A DNA stretch of 35,265 bases from Deltaproteobacteria bacterium (GTDB taxonomy: Bacteria; Myxococcota_C; UBA6777), in assembly GCA_002731275.1 (NCBI GenBank), contig PCBK01000149.1, positions 1 through 35,265 of the forward strand, written 5' to 3'. Positions 1,890 to 19,840 of this stretch are shown here, piece by piece. The stretch's first letter is position 1. The number at the start of each line of letters is the position of its first letter. Below the pieces are notes generated by a model. The model was not told where the DNA came from. It saw only the letters and a program-made list of their open reading frames with translations, and ran no database searches. Made by a program: the position numbers and the translations under genes.

Positions 1890-2522
1890 TCAGGTTTTTT
1901 GGCACCTGAAAGCAACAAGTTCCCCCCAAGACGTTGGGATTATTTCAAATCCCAAAATCGGAAGGATATTGATTTTGTCAAATGTGATCATAGATTGCCC
2001 ATGAACATGCATGTTTTCGTAGGGGGTGTAGTCTTTCATTCGACATTGCGGCACGGGACGATAAGGACCACCACCAATGACAAGAACCCTCCGACCATCA
2101 ATGGAACTTTGTCCGTTTCGTGATGTTTCCTCGAAAGGAAGAATCAACAGCTCACTCTCGGTTTCCTTAAGAACAACAGCAATACTGGCAGGAAAATCAG
2201 GCAGAGAATTGTTTACTCTCAAGGCTGTTCCATCGAGATCTTGCGGAGAGCAAGACCAAAAGTATGCAAGACGTTCAAAAGGAATTTGCGAGCTTTGCAA
2301 CTTTCTCAAAAACTCCTGACGCTTAATGTTCTCATCCTGCTGCTTTGTCAGTGTGATGAGACCCAGTTCAAACTTCATCAAAGTCGATTTGAATTGCAAG
2401 CCCTCCGTGATCCACTCTCTTAAGAGGACTTGGTAGGGAATCTGATAATAGTTCGCGATCACGTGCATCTCCTCTAACTGTTCTTCTGGAAAACGAAGTG
2501 AAGTTGTTTTCATAGCCATCAT
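1890..2522 (-). CDS. Ribbon-helix-helix N-terminal DNA-binding protein
   Basis: 210 aa. The first 45 residues (TTSLRFPEEQLEEMHVIAN onward) match the pattern of an RHH/CopG-type DNA-binding domain: one strand, then two helices. The remaining 160 residues are unrecognised; they include a GGGPYRPVP stretch. GGAGG lies 3 bases before the first ATG (2522) and 6 before the second (2519), so the second may be used. A 38-bp perfect palindrome lies just upstream, the natural candidate for an autoregulatory operator. It sits between small phage genes and the terminase genes, so it could control the packaging genes. Confidence 0.6.
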   Translation of the reverse strand: MMAMKTTSLRFPEEQLEEMHVIANYYQIPYQVLLREWITEGLQFKSTLMKFELGLITLTKQQDENIKRQEFLRKLQSSQIPFERLAYFWSCSPQDLDGTALRVNNSLPDFPASIAVVLKETESELLILPFEETSRNGQSSIDGRRVLVIGGGPYRPVPQCRMKDYTPYENMHVHGQSMITFDKINILPILGFEIIPTSWGELVAFRCQKT

Positions 2523-7073: not shown

Positions 7074-7451
7074 TCAATTTCCATCAGCGCCCCCTTCCCG
7101 ACCCTCAACACAAGACGTCTCCTGACGACGCCAGAAAGACACCGCAAGTGATGGTTTATTTTCGGACTTTGTGAGTTTGTGTGGTCGCCTTTTTGAAAGG
7201 GGTAAAGGTTCACGCTCTGGAAGTTGAACGTATTCATCAACACCATGTAACAGCGACCAAGCAGGCACATCGAGCACCTTCGCGAGAAGAAGAAGTGACT
7301 CCACAGGGATTGTGCATCTGCCCGACTCCCATCGCTGCACCTGTCTCTTTTGAACCCCCAACCTGTGGGCAACTTCTCTTTGAGACAATCCAGATTTCTT
7401 TCTCTTCGCCCGGACCTTTGCGGACACCAACTCCCAAACATCGGCCTTCAT
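7074..7451 (-). CDS. XRE-family DNA-binding regulator
   Basis: 125 aa. Residues about 10-62 form a canonical HTH_3 domain (GLSQREVAHRLGVQKRQVQR, then ESGRCTIPVESLLLLAKVL). The tail is polar and unstructured. AAAGGAGG lies 4 bases before the ATG, which overlaps the stop of the upstream gene (ATGA). It is a third regulator besides the CI/Cro pair. It lies one gene downstream of the symmetric heptamer array at 8.04-8.30 kb and is one candidate to bind it. Confidence 0.8.
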   Translation of the reverse strand: MKADVWELVSAKVRAKRKKSGLSQREVAHRLGVQKRQVQRWESGRCTIPVESLLLLAKVLDVPAWSLLHGVDEYVQLPEREPLPLSKRRPHKLTKSENKPSLAVSFWRRQETSCVEGREGGADGN

Positions 7452-8008
7452 GACGCCTCCTTTTGGATGACGACATCAGCCTTTTCGTACATAACGAAGA
7501 TGTCGTTGACGAGTCTATTTGAGCATCCCTCTTGATTGCACACACCGAACACTGCTCGGAACTTTCGTGTGGTCTCTCTTGGTACGTCCAATGCTCCCCA
7601 GGAAATGCACACAACACCTTCAGGCATGAATTCGAGTGCATCCCAGGTAAAGACACCTGTTCCCAACAAACAGCTCAGTGTGGGTTTCCAATGGCCGTAT
7701 TTGAGAGCGGTCTCGATCTCTGAGATGTCTGGTGCAACATCCCATCCAAAATGATTCCCCCAGGCCGCGCCCAAGCAGAGTAAAAACTCCCTCGCCCCCT
7801 TCGTTTTTTTCGGCATTTGAGAGGCGTACCGTATCCCATCAAAGAGTTCGTACGGTGTGAGGTGTAAACTAGGCAAGCAAGTGATAGGACAAACCGCGCT
7901 CCCTTCAACCCTAGCAACAGGCTGTGTGACTCTTTTCTGGACTGACGTCGAGGTATCCTTTGCACTTGAAGCAAACAACCCCTTTATAAAATCATGCCTT
8001 GCTTCCAT
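7448..8008 (-). CDS. Phage protein of unknown function beside the candidate origin
   Basis: 186 aa from the ATG at 8008, which has AAGGA 8 bases upstream. Visible: a polar first 55 residues, then a compact region with several Trp and Cys (AAWGNHFGWDVAP, CISWGALDVP). No motif recognised. It is the first gene after the non-coding heptamer array and is coupled to the XRE gene. A replication or array-binding role is possible from position only. Confidence 0.55.
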   Translation of the reverse strand: MEARHDFIKGLFASSAKDTSTSVQKRVTQPVARVEGSAVCPITCLPSLHLTPYELFDGIRYASQMPKKTKGAREFLLCLGAAWGNHFGWDVAPDISEIETALKYGHWKPTLSCLLGTGVFTWDALEFMPEGVVCISWGALDVPRETTRKFRAVFGVCNQEGCSNRLVNDIFVMYEKADVVIQKEAS

Positions 8009-8040
8009 ATCCCTATCCTTTTTTTGTATAGCTTGCACCC

Positions 8041-8299
8041 GGTGCTACACGATGCTACTTGGAACTACAATTGTGTAGCACCAAAATATTTACTCTTTCC
8101 ATATAGTTAAACTTAATAGATATAGGTACTACTCTAAAATAACATTGCTATATACGTGTGTGCGCGTGCCTGTGTGTGCGTGTGTGTAGCGTTTTCAAAA
8201 GAGGCGTAGTACTGCGTAGCACCTGGACCTATCACCTGATTCTAAAATGGAATTATGGTGCTACTATAGGAGTAGCACACCGTAGCATCGTGTAGCACC
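8041..8299. promoter_or_regulatory. Symmetric heptamer (iteron-like) array, candidate replication origin
   Basis: The 300-base gap between the primase gene end and the next gene holds repeats of GTGCTAC or its complement. Left cluster: 8042, 8052 and 8062 (10-bp period), then an inverted copy at 8075. Right cluster: 8258, then inverted copies at 8272, 8282 and 8292 (10-bp period). Inner copies GTACTAC at 8126 and GTAGTAC at 8206 are also mirror partners, with one extra at 8216. The arrangement is symmetric about 8170, within an alternating GT/GC tract (8150-8190). The stretch 8083-8150 is AT-rich. The outer 19 bases (8040-8058 and 8282-8300) are exact inverted repeats. Confidence 0.7.
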
Positions 8300-8310
8300 G
8301 CATGGCGCAA

Positions 8311-11085
8311 TTATGCGTTGTGAAAAAATCCACGCTGTGAAGCAACCTCATCCTCTTCAGGCTCAGATGCCGGCTCTTCAATTTTTTCGTATTGATATGT
8401 TCGATGGTGAAGTCTTTCGTGATCGTCTTCGTCCACCACCCGACTCTCCATGAAACCAGGCTGATCCCAATGCTCCTGGGAGATCTTCTCAGCAAGCTCA
8501 TGTACCTGTTGTGGGCAGTCGGGATGTGTGAGATCCACTCGAATACACGAGCGAGAAGGCTCTCCCTTCCCTCCAAGTCGACGAGGTGCGCGACCACTTG
8601 GAACGTAAGTCGCGTTGGTCAGGTAGCTGCGAATAGTACGCTCTGCAAAAGGAGTCTCCCCAGTGACCTGACGACTAAACAGAGAGAACTCCTGGAAGGC
8701 ACCGGAGAACCAAATCAGTAAGAATCCACCATCCTGGGAGAGACCTACATGCTGGCGATTGATCAACGATCTGTTTTGATTGTAGCGTGCTGTGAGGACG
8801 TTCAAGATATTCCAAAAGCGCAAGAGATGGTCATCGTCTTGACCTTCCAGAATCAAGCGAGAGAACTCTCTCTCAACATAAGCAAGCAGCTCACGAAGTA
8901 CGATCGCCTCTCGACTTCCTTCTTGGGGATTGTTGGTGAGGAGTGCTGTAAACACACCAAGTGGAACAGCATACACCCAGACCAGGCGTTCGTCATTCGC
9001 CTTTGGACGGAGCCTTTCAGCATACTCATGGATACACTGCATGACACTCGGTAACAGTTCATCCCTACGATGAATGATGTTCGACACAAGAGCTGGAAGC
9101 CGAGCCGCGATGGTCCTCGCATCTGCGTATTTCGATACATTGCGTCTGTTTCTGTCCATTGGGATGAAAACAAAACGCGACAATAAAGCTGGATCTGTGG
9201 GATACTCCTCCCCCGAAAGAAGCAAACATCCCCGAATATCCGATCCTGTTGTGCGATTGTCCGCACTGTACTGCGCCATGACACCAGAGCTTCTGTCGTA
9301 GATCGAACGAAGGCTGTGTATGGTCTTCTCGCGCAAGCTGTTTCGGAACTCATCAGCCCATACAGGCATCGATGCGTATTTGGAAAGCGTCCTCTCCAGC
9401 CCCTTCGCTGTCGATCCACCAAGCATAAGGGGGTTTTGGGAGTGAACAGGAAGTCCCCAGGCGGAGGTTAGCCATCTTCCCAGCTGTGTTTTCCCTGACT
9501 TCGCCTCACCGAATATCCCAAGGATCGGATAAAAGCCAAGCTCTGCAAAAATATCATCGGAGAAAACACACCCCAATATCCACCCCAAACCAAGCCCGAC
9601 GGCTGCTGTTCCAATGTTATCACGCCAGACAGAGTATGCCTCGCACAAATCAAGACGATCCTCTCTATCGGTCATCGTCAATTCAGGGATAGGGCAAAGT
9701 CTGTCTTGAAGTGGGATGATACCTGAAAGACTCTGACCCCACACAACACCGTCATCACCCAGAGGATATCGGTGGCCTGATGACATGATGCCATCACCAA
9801 ACACCCACTGGCCATCATCCAGGCGACCAAAACAATCGCTCTCTTTCGCGACCTTTGGAGAGGCCAATACAAACAATCTCCTCGCGAGAACATCGAGATG
9901 TTTCTGATTTCCACTCCAGTGATAGTTGCCTGTATTCAATAGGTTTTGTTTAAACTTTTGGACAGACACAAGCTCGCTTGGCTGTATCGTGATTTCAGAC
10001 TCCTCGCCTTGCTTGTTGAGCGCAACAAAGACACGCTCTAACGTTCCATCAGCACGTCGTGTTTGACGGGTCGGGAGCAGCAAAAAATTGCTCAAGAACT
10101 CAGGTGGTTTGTTTTGGGAGCTCCAGATGTAGATCCCATTTTCTTCCTTCAGCTGAGAGCGCCAAAGCCCATCCTTCGCCTGCTTGTAACCAACGACAAC
10201 GCGCCCCTCGTAGGGAAGTTCTTCTTTGTATTGTATGGGGATCGTCGCCTCTTTGACGACCTTCTGAAGTTCTCCAGGAGTCCTTCCAGCCGCAAGGGCT
10301 GCATCTGGATCGATCTTTCCGTTGATACGCCAATCATCGGGCAGTCGTGCGATCCTCGCCGAGTCGATATTATCTTCAGGAGAATACAGGCTTTGTGCCA
10401 TCCTGATGGCGTAGTAATCGGTGTCCCAACGTTTGAGAGGATCAGCCTTGAAACTTGGAAGCGAAGGGTCGTTCTTGACTTCGTTATCAAAGAGAATCAC
10501 AACTTCGCGGACTCTGTGTTGTCCCAGCAACTCCTTGAGACGATGCAGATACTTTCCCGCAAACGAGCTGATGCCAGGCACAGCAAGAGCTGGAATGCCT
10601 GATTGGATCAACGCAAGCGCTTTGTACTCGCCTTCGGTCAATACAATCTGATCCGTTTGACTTTCCCGCCCCAAGATATGCTGTCCATACACCTGGAGTG
10701 GTACACCCTTGGGACCAAGTTTGTGGGCGCGGATGTACAACACCTTCGTCTTCGAGGCGTTCCAGTATGGGATGATGATTTTTCCAGCAGGTTCGCTTTC
10801 GTCTTCCATCCATCGAAGAGATGGCATACCCCGGTAGGTGATCCCAGCATCTTCCAAATCTCTCTCGGGGAATGTCGCCAGCAAATCTCGCACAACAACA
10901 GCGACCCGCTCTTTGAGACCAGAGACCAGGCCTGCGTCTTTCAGAGTCTCGATGTGAAGTCCACGCTTGCTTTTCAGTTCCTTGACGTGTCGGTGGACAA
11001 GTGAATCACCAGGAAGCTCTTGGAGGCCGTGTATAAAAGCTGTGTAGATGTCCGAAAAATCTTTTCCATCAGAGGGATTTGTCAT
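8311..11085 (-). CDS. TOPRIM primase fused to DUF927-type helicase domain
   Basis: 924 aa phage replication protein. Residues about 100-210 form a TOPRIM fold: IVLTEGEYKALAL carries the catalytic Glu and VVILFDNE the acidic metal-binding motif. Residues about 360-720 match DUF927-type ATPases: Walker A GIFGEAKSGKTQ near 525 and Walker B MPVWADEF near 575. It most likely primes and unwinds DNA during phage or element replication. The start overlaps the RecD2 gene stop (ATGA), so the two are coupled. The tail is Glu-rich. The gene ends 12 bases from the symmetric heptamer array, a natural place for the origin it would act on. Confidence 0.85.
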   Translation of the reverse strand: MTNPSDGKDFSDIYTAFIHGLQELPGDSLVHRHVKELKSKRGLHIETLKDAGLVSGLKERVAVVVRDLLATFPERDLEDAGITYRGMPSLRWMEDESEPAGKIIIPYWNASKTKVLYIRAHKLGPKGVPLQVYGQHILGRESQTDQIVLTEGEYKALALIQSGIPALAVPGISSFAGKYLHRLKELLGQHRVREVVILFDNEVKNDPSLPSFKADPLKRWDTDYYAIRMAQSLYSPEDNIDSARIARLPDDWRINGKIDPDAALAAGRTPGELQKVVKEATIPIQYKEELPYEGRVVVGYKQAKDGLWRSQLKEENGIYIWSSQNKPPEFLSNFLLLPTRQTRRADGTLERVFVALNKQGEESEITIQPSELVSVQKFKQNLLNTGNYHWSGNQKHLDVLARRLFVLASPKVAKESDCFGRLDDGQWVFGDGIMSSGHRYPLGDDGVVWGQSLSGIIPLQDRLCPIPELTMTDREDRLDLCEAYSVWRDNIGTAAVGLGLGWILGCVFSDDIFAELGFYPILGIFGEAKSGKTQLGRWLTSAWGLPVHSQNPLMLGGSTAKGLERTLSKYASMPVWADEFRNSLREKTIHSLRSIYDRSSGVMAQYSADNRTTGSDIRGCLLLSGEEYPTDPALLSRFVFIPMDRNRRNVSKYADARTIAARLPALVSNIIHRRDELLPSVMQCIHEYAERLRPKANDERLVWVYAVPLGVFTALLTNNPQEGSREAIVLRELLAYVEREFSRLILEGQDDDHLLRFWNILNVLTARYNQNRSLINRQHVGLSQDGGFLLIWFSGAFQEFSLFSRQVTGETPFAERTIRSYLTNATYVPSGRAPRRLGGKGEPSRSCIRVDLTHPDCPQQVHELAEKISQEHWDQPGFMESRVVDEDDHERLHHRTYQYEKIEEPASEPEEDEVASQRGFFHNA

Positions 11086-13388
11086 TGGTTTCCCTCTGTC
11101 AAAATGGTCAGCAAACGTGTTTGTCTTTGCGCGTCCTGGATGTTCTTCCTAGCGAGGCGCAGTGCCTTTTGCGTACCAACTAAAACCACGAGTTTCTTCC
11201 CGCGTGTGATGGCGGTGTAGAGGAGCCTACGTGTAAGCATCTTTGCGTGAGAGGTGCTGACTGGAATGATGACACATGGCCATTCCGAACCCTGCGACTT
11301 GTGGACAGTGATGGCATACGCTGTCCGCAAGTGTTGTGTCGCACCTCCAGGGAATCGAACATATCGACCATCATCCATCTTCACAATCGCAGCACCTCTC
11401 TGATTGGATTGTTCAGGATCAGCAGGTTCAATCTCCGTAACAGTTCCCATCTCACCGTTGAAAACAAACAGTTCGTAATCATTCTTGGTTTGGATAACAC
11501 GATCCCCCTCTCGAAGAACGCGCCGTTGTCCTTTGACTTCCAATTCATTTTTGGAAGGGTGAGGTGGATTGAGCAATTCGCGCAGCTCCTTGTTCAGTTG
11601 AAGCGTTCCAATCTCCCCAGCTTTTTGCGGTGAAAGAACCTGTGTCTCTTCGACAGAGAGGCCAAACATTTCACGGGCGGTGGCGTGGGCCCAGATGAGT
11701 TCCTTCGCGATCGCTTCTCTCTCTTCACGTTTGATTTCTCTCTCTTCAACCTCGAAGAATTTGAAGTCTGTAAAACGATTGTTGTTGAGTTGGAGCTCTT
11801 CACCGTGAATCAAAGCGTGGGAATTTCTGGCGATTGCGCTGTCTTCGGCCTGTCTCATGATGCGAGTCAAGCGCACGACGGGAACAGCCTGGGATTCGAT
11901 AAGATCGTGGAGAACCTTGCCAGGACCGACGCTGGGGAGCTGATCCACATCCCCCACGAGAATCAAGCGAGTGTCTCCCATTGGATTGATCGCGCCGAAC
12001 AATTGACCTGCAAGACGGGCATCCAGCATCGAAGCCTCATCACATACGATCATCTTGGCAGGAAGATAATTCCCTGGCCCAAATTCGAACGCATCAACAT
12101 CCCCTTTGTACCGAAGCATATAGTGCAACGTTGAGGCTTCTCTGTTGGTCATCTCTGCCATGCGCCTGGCCGCTTTCCCTGTTGGTGCGCACAGACGCAA
12201 AGGTTGGTCACCCATATAGGCAGGTTGGATCTCTTGGTGAAGGGCTTTCAGGATCGCCTGGAGCGTGTATGTCTTTCCCGTACCTGGGCCCCCTGTGATG
12301 ATCAAAAAGCGACTTGTCTGGGCAAGCCTGACGGCTTCAGCTTGCTCTTTGTTGAGACCATACTCTTGGGTCAAATCGACAAGTTCACACTCCTGAAATA
12401 CATGTGTGAGCTCACGCGCTCGACGAGCTACCATCTTTTCACACGCAGACAAAATGAATGTGCTGAGTTGATGGTCGTGCTTGGAGATGCGTCTTTGTTG
12501 AAGAGAGCGCTCTACCGCGGCTGCCAACTTTCTTTTGTCGATGGACTCCAGCTTTTCTTTTTGTGCCCAATGGGCTGCCTGATCGAGAGATACCCAGGTG
12601 TGTCCTTCTTGCTGGCAGACATGTCCCAATAGATATTCGAGCGCAGCGTCAACACGGCGCTCATCAGATTGTGGGATGCCAACATCCATCGCCGCCCTGT
12701 CTGCACGCTTAAAGCCAACACCACTGATCTCAACAAGCCGATAAGGGTCTTCACGCAGCAGTTCCAACGCCGATTGTTTTGTCTCGGGGGGACCAGGCCA
12801 CCGTTTCAGTGCTTTGTTTACGATCCAGCGAGGCAGGTACTTGAGCAGCTCGATGTCACGCACTGCGAATTGACCGAACGCGCTGGCCTCGATTTCGGCT
12901 GCAATGATGCGGCTACGCTCTACGGACAATCCAGAGATCCTTTTTGCGACCAGCTCGGGCTCGTCCTTGAGAAGACGAATCAGTTCCTTTGGATCTTCTC
13001 CAAATGTTTCGATGATACAAATGGCTCTTTGACGACCGACATGAGGAAGCTCCGAGAGCTTTTCGATAAGTCCTTTGCGTGTTGTTGCTTTCTCGATCTC
13101 GATCTTCTCAGCGTCAAAGATCTCTTCGCCTGGATTGCGATTGTCTTCCACCCACTCCCCTTCGAGCCGGACCTCACATTGGGTAGGGAGAGGTAGAATG
13201 TTTCCTTTGGCCTTGGCTTCTGTGCCATTGGGCCTTTGCAGAAGGATAAGCCCCCACGTACCGCTGGAATAGAGAATTCTTGTAACAGTCCCCTCCAGCA
13301 CTCTTTGCTTCTGTTTTGTGTTCGTTGATGATTCGGCTTCGTGGAGTGAGGATGCTTGGTTTTCGTTCGTCGTCTGTGGTACAAACAT
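11082..13388 (-). CDS. RecD2-like 5'-3' DNA helicase
   Basis: 768 aa superfamily 1B helicase. An N-terminal OB-like region (VLEGTVTRI) and helix-hairpin-helix stretches (ELPHVGRQRA, LVEISGVGFKRADRA; residues about 95-250) precede the motor. Motor motifs: Walker A ITGGPGTGKT near 365, CAPTGKAARRM, Walker B VCDEASMLD, VGDVDQLPSVG, LTRIMRQ, ITVHKSQGSEW, and YTAITRGKK near 730. Domain order and length fit RecD2, which works without RecBC. In a phage it probably serves replication or recombination. I use the ATG at 13388 (GGAG 10 bases upstream) rather than 13454. It is coupled to the primase gene. Confidence 0.9.
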   Translation of the reverse strand: MFVPQTTNENQASSLHEAESSTNTKQKQRVLEGTVTRILYSSGTWGLILLQRPNGTEAKAKGNILPLPTQCEVRLEGEWVEDNRNPGEEIFDAEKIEIEKATTRKGLIEKLSELPHVGRQRAICIIETFGEDPKELIRLLKDEPELVAKRISGLSVERSRIIAAEIEASAFGQFAVRDIELLKYLPRWIVNKALKRWPGPPETKQSALELLREDPYRLVEISGVGFKRADRAAMDVGIPQSDERRVDAALEYLLGHVCQQEGHTWVSLDQAAHWAQKEKLESIDKRKLAAAVERSLQQRRISKHDHQLSTFILSACEKMVARRARELTHVFQECELVDLTQEYGLNKEQAEAVRLAQTSRFLIITGGPGTGKTYTLQAILKALHQEIQPAYMGDQPLRLCAPTGKAARRMAEMTNREASTLHYMLRYKGDVDAFEFGPGNYLPAKMIVCDEASMLDARLAGQLFGAINPMGDTRLILVGDVDQLPSVGPGKVLHDLIESQAVPVVRLTRIMRQAEDSAIARNSHALIHGEELQLNNNRFTDFKFFEVEEREIKREEREAIAKELIWAHATAREMFGLSVEETQVLSPQKAGEIGTLQLNKELRELLNPPHPSKNELEVKGQRRVLREGDRVIQTKNDYELFVFNGEMGTVTEIEPADPEQSNQRGAAIVKMDDGRYVRFPGGATQHLRTAYAITVHKSQGSEWPCVIIPVSTSHAKMLTRRLLYTAITRGKKLVVLVGTQKALRLARKNIQDAQRQTRLLTILTEGNQ

Positions 13389-13469
13389 TTCGTTTTTTCT
13401 CCGTTGAATAAGGAAAAACAAGTGAGAGGAGGAGCGGCCAACTCCTCCCCTCACACTTTCACCAGCAAA

Positions 13470-14930: not shown

Positions 14931-15140
14931 TCAAGCAGCTTCTTTGGCTTTAGAAGCAGGTGCAAGTTCTTCAAAAGAGACTTCGCCCTTTGTGTAATGC
15001 TTTATCTTCAGTGCGAGTTGGAAGCTTGGGGGAGTTTTTCTCAGACAGATGGCACTCAGATGACCCGGTGTAATGTCTAGTTCACCAGCCACATCTATCT
15101 TCTTTTTGCCTTCCTTTGAGATCCATTGTTGTAAGGTCAT
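14931..15140 (-). CDS. Cro/YdaS-like repressor
   Basis: 69 aa. The helix-turn-helix KIDVAGELDITPGHLSAI and the segment SFQLALKIKHYTKGEVSFEEL match small phage Cro-like (YdaS-type) proteins. It is divergent from the CI-like gene across a 157-base control region and is the first gene of the leftward early operon, the expected position for Cro. I use the ATG at 15140, with GAGGA 9 bases upstream; longer upstream frames would run into the promoter. Confidence 0.8.
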   Translation of the reverse strand: MTLQQWISKEGKKKIDVAGELDITPGHLSAICLRKTPPSFQLALKIKHYTKGEVSFEELAPASKAKEAA

Positions 15141-15142
15141 GA

Positions 15143-15232
15143 TCAAAATTCCTCTTGCATGGAATAATTTTGATCTCATCATAATTAAGAGAGCACAATC
15201 CGTCAAGAGAAAATTGTACTCTCATCAAAATT
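15143..15232 (-). promoter_or_regulatory. Leftward early promoter with dyad operators
   Basis: On the minus strand TTGACG (15201-15206), 17 bases, TATGAT (15178-15183) makes a strong sigma-70 promoter for cro. Dyads of the form AATTwTGA-N5-TCAwAATT lie at 15166-15186, over the -10 box, and in a weaker form at 15212-15232, over and upstream of the -35 box. A further half-site is at 15143-15150. Both full sites have the spacer TCTCA. Confidence 0.75.
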
Positions 15233-15297
15233 TGTTGCGCCACGGTATGATGTCCTCTACATTGGCTTTGTACTTGTATAATGAAGGGAGTGAGCTT

Positions 15298-15603
15298 GTG
15301 AAAGTTGGCGAGAAGATCAGGATACTGCGAAAAGCCAAAGGTTGGACGCTAAAAGATTTGGAGAGGGAAACAGGATTATCCTTTTCCTTTTTATCTCAAG
15401 TTGAACGGGGAGACAGTAGTTTCAGCCAAGAAAGCATTGATAAAATAGCTACTTCTTTGGGGGTCTCTTCTGCACTCCTCCAATCAGAAGAGATCTCGGT
15501 AGAGCACCTGGAGAGCCTCTCTCAACTTCTTCCAGTTGCCGCATCCCTTCCTGTTGAAAAGTTGGAGGTTCTTGTCCAGATGGCTCGGGCTTTGAAAGAT
15601 TGA
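15298..15603 (+). CDS. CI-like XRE lysogeny repressor
   Basis: 101 aa from a GTG at 15298 with GGGAG 7 bases upstream. KVGEKIRILRKAKGWTLKDL, then LSFSFLSQVERGDSSFSQES, is a canonical XRE helix-turn-helix. The rest (residues about 65-101) is a short leucine-rich helix, probably for dimerisation. It lacks the LexA-type self-cleavage domain of lambda CI, so induction would need another signal. A TATAAT at 15277-15282 without a good -35 box lies close to the start, which would fit a weak, self-activated maintenance promoter. An ATG at 15252 is an alternative start. Confidence 0.8.
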   Translation: MKVGEKIRILRKAKGWTLKDLERETGLSFSFLSQVERGDSSFSQESIDKIATSLGVSSALLQSEEISVEHLESLSQLLPVAASLPVEKLEVLVQMARALKD

Positions 15604-18289: not shown

Positions 18290-18589
18290 ATGGGATCGGG
18301 TACTATCACAGAGCTGGAGTCACGTATTAACAGACTCGAAGCAAAGATCTCTGAAAAACAAATAGATAGCAATTGGATGACATTCAATGAGGTCGTGGTG
18401 TACCTCAAAGCCAAAGAGAGTCATGTAAGGAGTCTGGTCTATCGCAACAAGATCCCATACTCCAAACTTGGCGAGCTGCTTCGATTTCACCGGCCCACCA
18501 TTGACGATTGGCTGCTCACAAGTGCGGAGCCTGACCAGCACGTCAGACCCCGCAAAGGAGCAAAAAGGAAATGTCTATCCAAAAGATAA
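18290..18589 (+). CDS. Excisionase-like helix-turn-helix protein
   Basis: 99 aa. A short N-terminal coiled coil (ITELESRINRLEAKI) is followed by WMTFNEVVVYLKAKESHVRS and LGELLRFHRPTIDDWL, the HTH_17/MerR-like pattern of excisionases. GGAGG lies 5 bases before the ATG at 18290. It overlaps the integrase gene by 19 bases, as recombination directionality factors often do. It probably helps Int excise the element. Confidence 0.7.
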   Translation: MGSGTITELESRINRLEAKISEKQIDSNWMTFNEVVVYLKAKESHVRSLVYRNKIPYSKLGELLRFHRPTIDDWLLTSAEPDQHVRPRKGAKRKCLSKR

Positions 18590-19668
18590 AGCGAAAGTCC
18601 GGCTATGTCTACCGCGCTCGCGTTTATGTGCGCGGAAAACAAGTCAGCTCAACATTCTCTCGCAAGATTGATGCGGAGGAGTGGGAGCGTGATAAGCTTC
18701 GTGAACGCGACAGCCCAAAAGGCTGCCTTCCCGAAATGACTTTCCGCGAACTCTATGACAAATGGGTTCGTAGCACCAAAAATCACCTCGCGAAGAGTAC
18801 AGCACTGCGGTACGAGCAGTTGTTCCGGCTGTACATCCTCCCAGCCTTTGAAGACTGTCTCATCCAGGAAATCCGTACAGAAGACGTTGATGAATGGTTC
18901 AACGAAGTGCAAGACCTTTACGAGCTTGCACCCAAAACGCTGAATCACATCCTCAACGCACTCAAGACCGTCATGCACTTTGCAGTCAGCCGACGACTCC
19001 TCCACTTTACCCCATGCACCCCCATCAAAAGCCTCCCCCTCAACTACGACGATTTCGACTTTTGGTCGCGGGAAGAAATCACGGACTTTCTCCAGAGCGC
19101 CAAAGATGATCCCAACTACGGGATCTATCTATGCGCCCTTAACACCGGGATGAGGTTAGGTGAAATTCTCTCTCTTCAGTGGGACATGGTTGCGCTGGAG
19201 AGAAGGATGATTACCGTGGCGCGGACATGGTGTACTGTCGACAAGCAGATCAAAAACGAAACCAAGGGAAAGCGACGACGTCACGTTCCCATCAATGATC
19301 CATTGATGGGCTGGCTTGTGGAAAATCGCTCTCGTGATGGACTTGTCTTTGGTCGTCGTGGTGTAGTGTTAGACCCAAATCACTTCAACCAAAACCATTT
19401 TCGTCCTGCCTGTGTTCGTTATGGAGTTCGTACCATACGATTCCACGACCTAAGACACACATATGCCTCGCATTACATCATGAATGGTGGCGATCCGCTG
19501 CGACTCCAAAAGATTTTGGGACACCAAGATTTCAAGACAACGCAGCGATACACTCACCTGAGCCCCGATTACCTCCGAGGTGCCGCAGACTTTGTGAATT
19601 TCGAAGCTCCTTCAGAAGAGGAGAATGTATTGTCAATTGCGGAATATCGGGAAGTTGGGAATAAATAG
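18571..19668 (+). CDS. int: Tyrosine integrase
   Basis: 365 aa site-specific recombinase. An N-terminal arm-binding region (SGYVYRARVYVRGKQVSSTF), a SAM-like core-binding domain (about residues 55-150) and the catalytic domain are all present. Catalytic residues: Arg in TGMRLGE (near 194), Lys in the KGKRRRHVPI segment, HDLRH (near 291), His in LGHQ (near 317) and the Tyr nucleophile in TTQRYTH (near 326). The set is complete, so the enzyme should be active. It overlaps the excisionase-like gene and ends 88 bases from a tRNA-Leu gene, the likely target. Confidence 0.95.
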   Translation: MSIQKIKRKSGYVYRARVYVRGKQVSSTFSRKIDAEEWERDKLRERDSPKGCLPEMTFRELYDKWVRSTKNHLAKSTALRYEQLFRLYILPAFEDCLIQEIRTEDVDEWFNEVQDLYELAPKTLNHILNALKTVMHFAVSRRLLHFTPCTPIKSLPLNYDDFDFWSREEITDFLQSAKDDPNYGIYLCALNTGMRLGEILSLQWDMVALERRMITVARTWCTVDKQIKNETKGKRRRHVPINDPLMGWLVENRSRDGLVFGRRGVVLDPNHFNQNHFRPACVRYGVRTIRFHDLRHTYASHYIMNGGDPLRLQKILGHQDFKTTQRYTHLSPDYLRGAADFVNFEAPSEEENVLSIAEYREVGNK

Positions 19669-19756
19669 GAGGGGTTTTGCAATCGCGATCGTACATATTT
19701 CGTACACATAAAAAAAGTTGCGATTGTAAGGTCTCGAAAAGAAAGGAGAAGAACAG
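19669..19756. other. Attachment-site flank between integrase and tRNA
   Basis: A 7-bp inverted repeat (CAATCGC at 19680, GCGATTG at 19720) and a short direct repeat, CGTACA (19690 and 19701), may be integrase arm sites. The crossover itself should lie at the tRNA 3' end, near 19757-19785. Confidence 0.4.
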
Positions 19757-19840
19757 TGACCGGGGAGGGACTTGAACCCTCACGCTCCATCGAGCATCGG
19801 ATTTTAAATCCGAGGTGTCTACCGATTCCACCACCCGGCC
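19757..19840 (-). tRNA. tRNA-Leu (anticodon UAA)
   Basis: An 84-nt type II cloverleaf. Acceptor GGCCGGG pairs with CCCGGTC (one G-U), and the discriminator is A. The D-arm has GTGG ... CAC. The anticodon stem TCGGA/TCCGA carries loop TTTAAAA (anticodon TAA). A long variable arm follows (GCTCGATGGAGC), and the T-arm is GAGGG-TTCAAGT-CCCTC. CCA is not encoded. Its 3' end faces the integrase, so it is the likely insertion target, with the 3' end restored by the element. Confidence 0.95.

Follow-up and report, generated by a model that had tools for sequence, protein, structure and literature searches.

The array of heptamer repeats at positions 8040 to 8300 of the window (the whole stretch of 35,265 nucleotides analysed here, which is an entire contig, G000:C138, of a 10.75-Mb genome) is very probably the site at which an integrated contractile-tailed phage begins to replicate, and the protein encoded by the adjoining gene would recognise it in cis. 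This reading is well supported because initiators of this class bind iterons located 3' of their own gene, because the architecture is kept in relatives, and because the geometry is that of the P4 and Sfi21 origins. A phage replication origin was also the main reading of the initial annotation, and the fold of the initiator, the architecture of the relatives and the Sfi21/P4 geometry all agree with it. Two things stand out: how broad the family is, and that a fixed spacing goes together with free turnover of the repeat sequence.

All eleven GTGCTAC/GTAGCAC-like heptamers described in the initial annotation were found, each at its position and on its strand (Table 1). Six of the 11 are exact (8042, 8075, 8216, 8258, 8272 and 8292), four have one mismatch (8052, 8126, 8206 and 8282) and the site at 8062 (GAACTAC) has two. 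Over the 35-kb window GTAGCAC is matched 53 times with at most one mismatch, and 10 of these 53 matches lie inside the 260 bp of the array, compared with about 0.45 expected there (shuffle mean of 60.6 per window). The 10-bp period described for the outer trios is exact in both. The proposed mirror symmetry about 8169–8170 held as well: the outermost arms of the array (8040–8058 and 8282–8300) form a perfect 19-nucleotide inverted repeat centred on 8170, this is also the exact centre of the mirror partners 8042/8292, 8052/8282 and 8062/8272, and the partners 8075/8258 and 8126/8206 are centred on 8169.5 and 8169, respectively. Permuting gaps and orientations gave p = 0.003 for the dyad symmetry at this locus alone. 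The gaps of the proximal arm are 10, 10, 14 (inverted), 42 and 10; the distal arm has a spacer of 51 bp and one inner copy is missing from it. The site at 8216 had been taken for an extra copy. Because the inner element of the relatives is a pair on each side (see below), it is not surplus; rather, the left, distal side is short of a copy, which is expected around 8116–8118 and is lost or degenerate.

Table 1. Features of the array and of its surroundings (window coordinates).
Feature	Position	Strand	Remark
Whole iteron array, proposed origin of replication	8040..8300		dyad centre 8169–8170; homologous position in ~30 relatives
Outer iteron GTAGCAC, primase-proximal trio 1	8292..8298	+	
Outer iteron GTAGCAT, primase-proximal trio 2	8282..8288	+	
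Outer iteron GTAGCAC, primase-proximal trio 3	8272..8278	+	
Inverted single iteron GTGCTAC, primase-proximal arm	8258..8264	-	42 bp from inner pair
Spacer of proximal half-arm, ~four helical turns	8223..8257		length kept in relatives; weak spacer motif
Inner-pair iteron GTAGCAC, proximal arm	8216..8222	+	
Inner-pair iteron GTAGTAC, proximal arm	8206..8212	+	
Central gap between inner iterons, proposed melting/loading zone	8133..8205		A+T-rich on distal side
Inner iteron GTACTAC, distal arm	8126..8132	-	expected partner near 8116–8118 degenerate or lost
A+T-rich stretch (78%), candidate DNA unwinding element	8083..8150		
Inverted single iteron GTAGCAC, distal arm	8075..8081	+	
Outer iteron GAACTAC, distal trio	8062..8068	-	two mismatches
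Outer iteron ATGCTAC, distal trio	8052..8058	-	
Outer iteron GTGCTAC, distal trio	8042..8048	-	
924-aa initiator, DnaG/TOPRIM primase fused to SaPI-Rep/Cch-like AAA+ helicase	8311..11085	-	AF2 model, structure search, phrog_1139
RecD2-like helicase gene (phrog_4412)	11082..13454	-	directly upstream of initiator gene, overlapping
186-aa protein, first gene after array	7448..8008	-	outside the conserved pairing
Tyrosine integrase, end of prophage	18571..19668	+	

The array had been placed directly after the primase/helicase gene, and it indeed begins 11 bp beyond the stop codon of that gene (8311–8313). Family searches identified the 924-aa product as a DNA primase (phrog_1139; DUF3854), and in a 26-member alignment of the family DUF3854 was found in 24 of 26 proteins, the DnaG zinc finger in 7 and DUF927 in 2. 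An AlphaFold (AF2) model was built on the alignment of 26 relatives (mean pLDDT of 79.7) and submitted to a structure search with VIA-align. Residues 6–300 of the model matched the DnaG RNA-polymerase domain (Z of about 19), residues 307–876 matched SaPIbov1 Rep (8tch, Z of 22.4), and the helicase part matched SCCmec Cch (5dgk, Z of 21.1). The predicted structure shows an initiator composed of a DnaG-like primase and an AAA+ helicase of the SaPI-Rep/Cch fold. Towards the C-terminus, residues 793–851 of the model are arranged as helix-helix-strand-strand, and the alignment with 8tch reaches residue 876; going by the model's secondary structure and the Rep alignment, a winged helix is a candidate for this region. 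Sequence profile comparison with P4 alpha gave a match covering only the ATPase motif. When the similarity of the iterons was compared with that of the initiators domain by domain (Mantel), the correlation was weak: rho ranged from 0.18 to 0.27 (p from 0.014 to 0.057), and no domain, the C-terminal one included, was singled out. The neighbouring RecD2-like helicase gene and the initiator gene are parts of the same replication module. In two relatives, L027 (residue 599) and L041 (residue 643), the primase-helicase frame is broken at the same boundary (after KGYKPR.LTVE), with different stops (TGA, TAA) and Met codons soon after; this is perhaps a natural split between a primase-bearing N-terminal part and an AAA+ helicase part.

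The first 19.7 kb of the window belong to a 74.6-kb viral contig, IMGVR_UViG_3300020386_000437, to which the window is identical across the 14.8 kb compared. By coordinates, the end of the viral contig is the integrase stop at 19668 (IMG/VR provirus cut). A tRNA-Leu(TAA) is located at 19756–19840, 88 bp past the integrase. The integrase/tRNA-Leu region (18571–19840) is a probable attachment site, and the window to the right of about 19.7 kb is probably host chromosome; a search of the opening 4 kb of the viral contig turned up no duplicated attachment core. This contig carries genes for a terminase large subunit (weak match), head morphogenesis, tail sheath, tape measure and baseplate. With terminase, head and tail genes of its own, the element is therefore a contractile-tailed prophage and not a satellite; a satellite (phage-inducible chromosomal island) has no head or tail genes of its own. 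The initial annotation had suggested GC skew as a check. The skew of the 74.6-kb contig does not turn at the array and its minimum lies 5 kb away, the skew in this integrated element tracking gene direction. Elsewhere in the window, a perfect palindrome of 38 nucleotides (2546–2583, containing TTGTCGATTAAATTAATCGATTAATTTAATCGACAA) lies just upstream of a 210-aa gene (1890–2522, minus strand) with a weak CopG-antitoxin match, and is a probable autoregulatory operator or hairpin.

Relatives of the 924-aa protein were found on 29 further viral contigs (26–31% identity, nearly all full length) and similar ones on about 17 genome contigs, several of them in cultured Firmicutes; a scan of genome contigs with the 924-aa protein as single query gave no relatives, and a DNA-level search of phage records with the array region gave no match. 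Prophages of this kind occur in the cultured Moorella stamsii DSM 26217, Pelotomaculum propionicicum MGP and Desulfovirgula thermocuniculi. At least 15 of 27 viral records have a clear large terminase. To look for the array in related prophages was another check proposed at the outset: a clear 8-mer array was present within 350 bp beyond the stop codon of the primase gene in 26 of the 28 viral-contig relatives tested. The 8-mers are lineage-specific (TGTAATAT, TGGGACAG, GTTGCAAA, ACCGGAAC and others), and the arrays score 10 to 26 compared with shuffle means of about 5–7 in most. In a sliding-window test on 47 loci, the segment after the primase scored higher than all other 300-bp segments of the same locus in 33 cases. 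The exceptions were five distant homologues, L038 and L068 (no array), L034 (degenerate), L041 and L071 (array beyond an inserted XRE gene), L019 and L022 (ties), and L032 and L076 (beaten by other tandem repeats). Because several loci are one phage in two collections, independent lineages are nearer 33. No array follows the primase in L038, which is a full-length relative, nor in the more distant homologues L068 and L080–L085, nor was any seen after the gene in Salmonella phage Arash, Vibrio phage D69, Mea-Yong924-1 and vB_BpuM-ZY1, which are distant and have the helicase domain.

Several of these loci have particularities of their own. The densest array is that of L004/L016 (IMGVR_UViG_3300035700_000486), with 17 copies of TGTAATAT and inverted arms of 101 nucleotides that are 78% complementary. 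The XRE-type gene of L041/L071 (Pelotomaculum propionicicum MGP), between primase and array, is convergent. Strong clusters of short repeats (AAGCCGGT, TGCTATTC and CTGCTGCT) lie elsewhere in L032 (stop-4735), L034 (stop+1652) and L076 (stop+2258). In the isolated Flavobacterium phage 23T (L102:4600-4870), a non-coding region with TGTTGAGA repeats and AAAATCAAGGGTTGAGAGGTTGAGAG follows the TOPRIM gene and resembles an incomplete or diverged form of the origin described here.

We compared the geometry of the arrays using site lists from a threshold PWM scan seeded by the best 8-mer of each locus. In 33 loci there were 119 mirrored inverted pairs compared with 71.7±3.1 by permutation (maximum of 83 in 1000), related loci being counted as independent in the permutation tests. 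Related phages that kept the genes and lacked the symmetry would have spoken against an origin according to the initial annotation, and the relatives show the opposite. Their commonest outer part consists of two or three sites 8–12 bp apart, often followed by an inverted site; a spacer of 41–48 bp (second mode, 52–60) then leads from the outer site to an inner pair 8–10 bp apart, and after a central gap of about 70–115 bp the mirror image follows. Gaps of 41–48 bp numbered 45, compared with 22.7±4.5 for randomly placed sites, a twofold excess. Perfect six-pair dyads with unrelated repeat sequences were found in L033, L027 and L070. At the level of sequence, these comparisons show that the relatives keep the spacing and the mirror plan while the repeat sequence is replaced. 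A large dyad in phase with the helix, which had been thought less usual, is thus the rule in this origin class.

The base composition of the array was also examined. The A+T-rich stretch 8083–8150, correctly noted at the outset, contains 78% A+T compared with 49% for the window; the two iteron sets flank a central region and this A+T-rich part is off-centre. The alternating purine/pyrimidine centre is likewise real as sequence: a tract at 8149–8188, in the central gap, is made of the window's two longest alternating runs (21 and 18 nucleotides), broken once. However, a Z-DNA-prone centre, which the initial annotation had seen as a feature of the origin, is not supported as a functional part, the relatives being without such a tract. 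Their central gaps are in most cases A+T-rich (mostly 0.6–0.8 A+T) and their longest alternating runs measure 3–15 nucleotides, mostly 5–8, compared with 21 in the window. Because these runs are short, the alternating centre is treated as a peculiarity of the window copy; if it matters there, it would act as an easily unwound stretch.

The spacers of the relatives were searched for a palindrome, and the score was not significant (6.6 compared with 6.3±0.14; highest shuffle of 6.7). The spacers, about 45 bp long, that separate the outer from the inner sites in L018, L024, L026, L030, L033, L037 and Sfi21 contain a second, weakly conserved word, with the consensus CTG..A.A.CAAGGGTTT.GGG (motif score of 421 compared with about 222 in shuffled spacers). 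This word is common to these six relatives and Sfi21 although their iterons differ, and possibly reflects contact by another protein or common ancestry.

Other roles can be considered for such an array. The initial annotation had offered a looping operator for the downstream operon. In this reading a repressor (the XRE or the 186-aa protein) would bind the mirrored sites, loop the DNA and control the operon. A helically phased dyad would suit looping, the array lies between two genes of the same strand and directly upstream of the second one, and an XRE regulator is encoded at 15073–15603; however, there is no second site cluster near the XRE gene or elsewhere in the 74.6-kb phage contig, promoter matches amount to one that is weak, on the wrong strand and at chance level, and the geometry equals that of known origins. 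In addition, three or more unrelated families are represented by the gene that follows the array in the relatives; in L039 this gene starts 800 bp off, in L020 it lies on the opposite strand, and the inserted gene of L041/L071 parts the primase from the array. We regard an operator as very unlikely, because the array stays with the primase as the downstream gene changes in family, distance and strand.

Harder to exclude than the operator is a binding site of the initiator for copy control or a decoy, strand opening taking place at another site, as the element after the alpha gene of P4 is annotated crr and the P4 origin, with the same repeats, lies 4.5 kb away; the Sfi21 region, too, is annotated "phage inhibitory". 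A second iteron cluster is nevertheless absent from the 74.6-kb contig, and in the window and its relatives, as in the annotated origin of Sfi21, both arms of the dyad are present together with an A+T-rich part, so that we give this role little credence. That the array serves in partition (as a centromere), in recombination or in packaging is scarcely conceivable. Sites of these kinds can be repeat arrays too, but no ParA/ParB-type gene was present among the neighbours scanned, the integrase and tRNA-Leu are more than 10 kb away, the terminase gene is about 8 kb from the array in the viral contig, and in the relatives the position of the array is bound to the primase.

Returning to the origin, we infer its binding, double-hexamer loading, melting and priming from homologues. 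Using its C-terminal domain, the 924-aa initiator would bind the heptamer iterons, in duplex form, on the two half-arms. One helicase hexamer would then be nucleated by each half-arm, with its outer trio, inverted single site, spacer of about four turns and inner pair, and, because the half-arms are mirror images, the two hexamers would be set head to head around the central gap. A+T-rich DNA in and beside this gap may melt, the rings encircling single strands and moving apart, and the fused DnaG-like domain could prime both strands, leading to bidirectional initiation. A broader proposal, for and against which we see the balance as even, is that the half-arm is a rigid nucleoprotein module common to primase-helicase initiators ranging from that of satellite P4 to those of tailed phages in many bacterial phyla, and that two mirrored modules make a head-to-head double-hexamer loader whose letters turn over while its spacing stays fixed. 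If this is true, origins of uncultured phages could be read from geometry alone, and an origin plan credited to PICIs alone (PMC6092414) would be common in complete phages.

These results provide a well-supported origin for an uncultured phage and, beyond it, a whole family of DnaG-Rep fused initiators in which origin spacing is kept and repeat sequence replaced. With them one can test how the geometry of an origin, and not its sequence, is read by a hexameric helicase, as well as initiator-iteron co-evolution and head-to-head loading of two rings on a self-contained origin of a bacterial virus.

Among known systems, SaPI/PICI Rep and SCCmec Cch have a helicase fold like that of the window initiator (8tch and 5dgk, above). 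In SaPI Rep helicases the C-terminal domain recognises iterons that lie just downstream of the gene for the helicase itself, and two hexamers are apparently involved (PMC7581432). PICI origins, located 3' of rep, comprise two iteron sets around an A+T-rich region; for one PICI a pri-ori plasmid was tested, and the plan was said to occur in "no other known bacterial replicon" (PMC6092414). The window has the same arrangement, an iteron origin directly 3' of the initiator gene with two sets flanking an A+T-rich region (PMC6092414, PMC7581432), a likeness of position and layout taken from descriptions, the comparison of spacing covering P4 and Sfi21. In contrast to the SaPI/PICI proteins, the window initiator has a DnaG-like primase fused to the Rep-like part, and it is encoded not by a satellite but by a complete phage, which brings its own terminase, head and tail genes.

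P4 alpha combines a TOPRIM-type primase, a helicase and a C-terminal DNA-binding domain in one protein (PMC4234260; 1ka8); a winged-helix domain at its C-terminus binds the type-1 repeats, after which the protein unwinds the DNA and primes (PMC4234260). In the P4 record (X51522), the annotated type-1 repeats of ori have gaps of 10, 11, 22 (inverted), 43 and 10; crr, located directly after the alpha gene, has gaps of 9, 43, 18 and 14 in both of its halves. The 8-bp iterons of P4 ori thus form a trio, an inverted single, a 43-bp spacer and a pair, with the orientations of the window's proximal arm. The half-arms of P4 are split between ori and the distant crr, the latter consisting of two direct 120-bp copies, whereas those of the window face each other in one dyad. 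The iteron letters differ (GGTGAACA in P4, GTGCTAC in the window), and alpha and the window initiator have no full-length profile match.

Streptococcus phage Sfi21 is a tailed phage whose origin, as in the window, lies 3' of a putative primase gene and has mirrored half-arms. Its record (AF115103) gives, directly after this gene, an "origin of replication, 302 bp non-coding region, phage inhibitory sequence". In Sfi21 the AGTAAC/GTTACT sites form inner pairs with a separation of 8 bp on either side of an A+T-rich centre, and the spacers measure 45 and 47 bp, the dyad centre and the right-hand spacer having been read by hand from the sequence. The Sfi21 iteron AGTAAC is unlike the GTGCTAC of the window, and the Sfi21 initiator, orf382, is shorter, with no relation to the window initiator detected by profile comparison. 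The P4 and Sfi21 origin annotations, which were made independently, reproduce the spacing of the relatives. In its 3' location, two iteron sets, half-arm geometry and initiator fold, the window array is a member of the P4-alpha/PICI-Rep/Sfi21 origin class, and P4 ori/crr, the Sfi21 origin, those of PICIs and those of uncultured phages are joined by one measurable plan.
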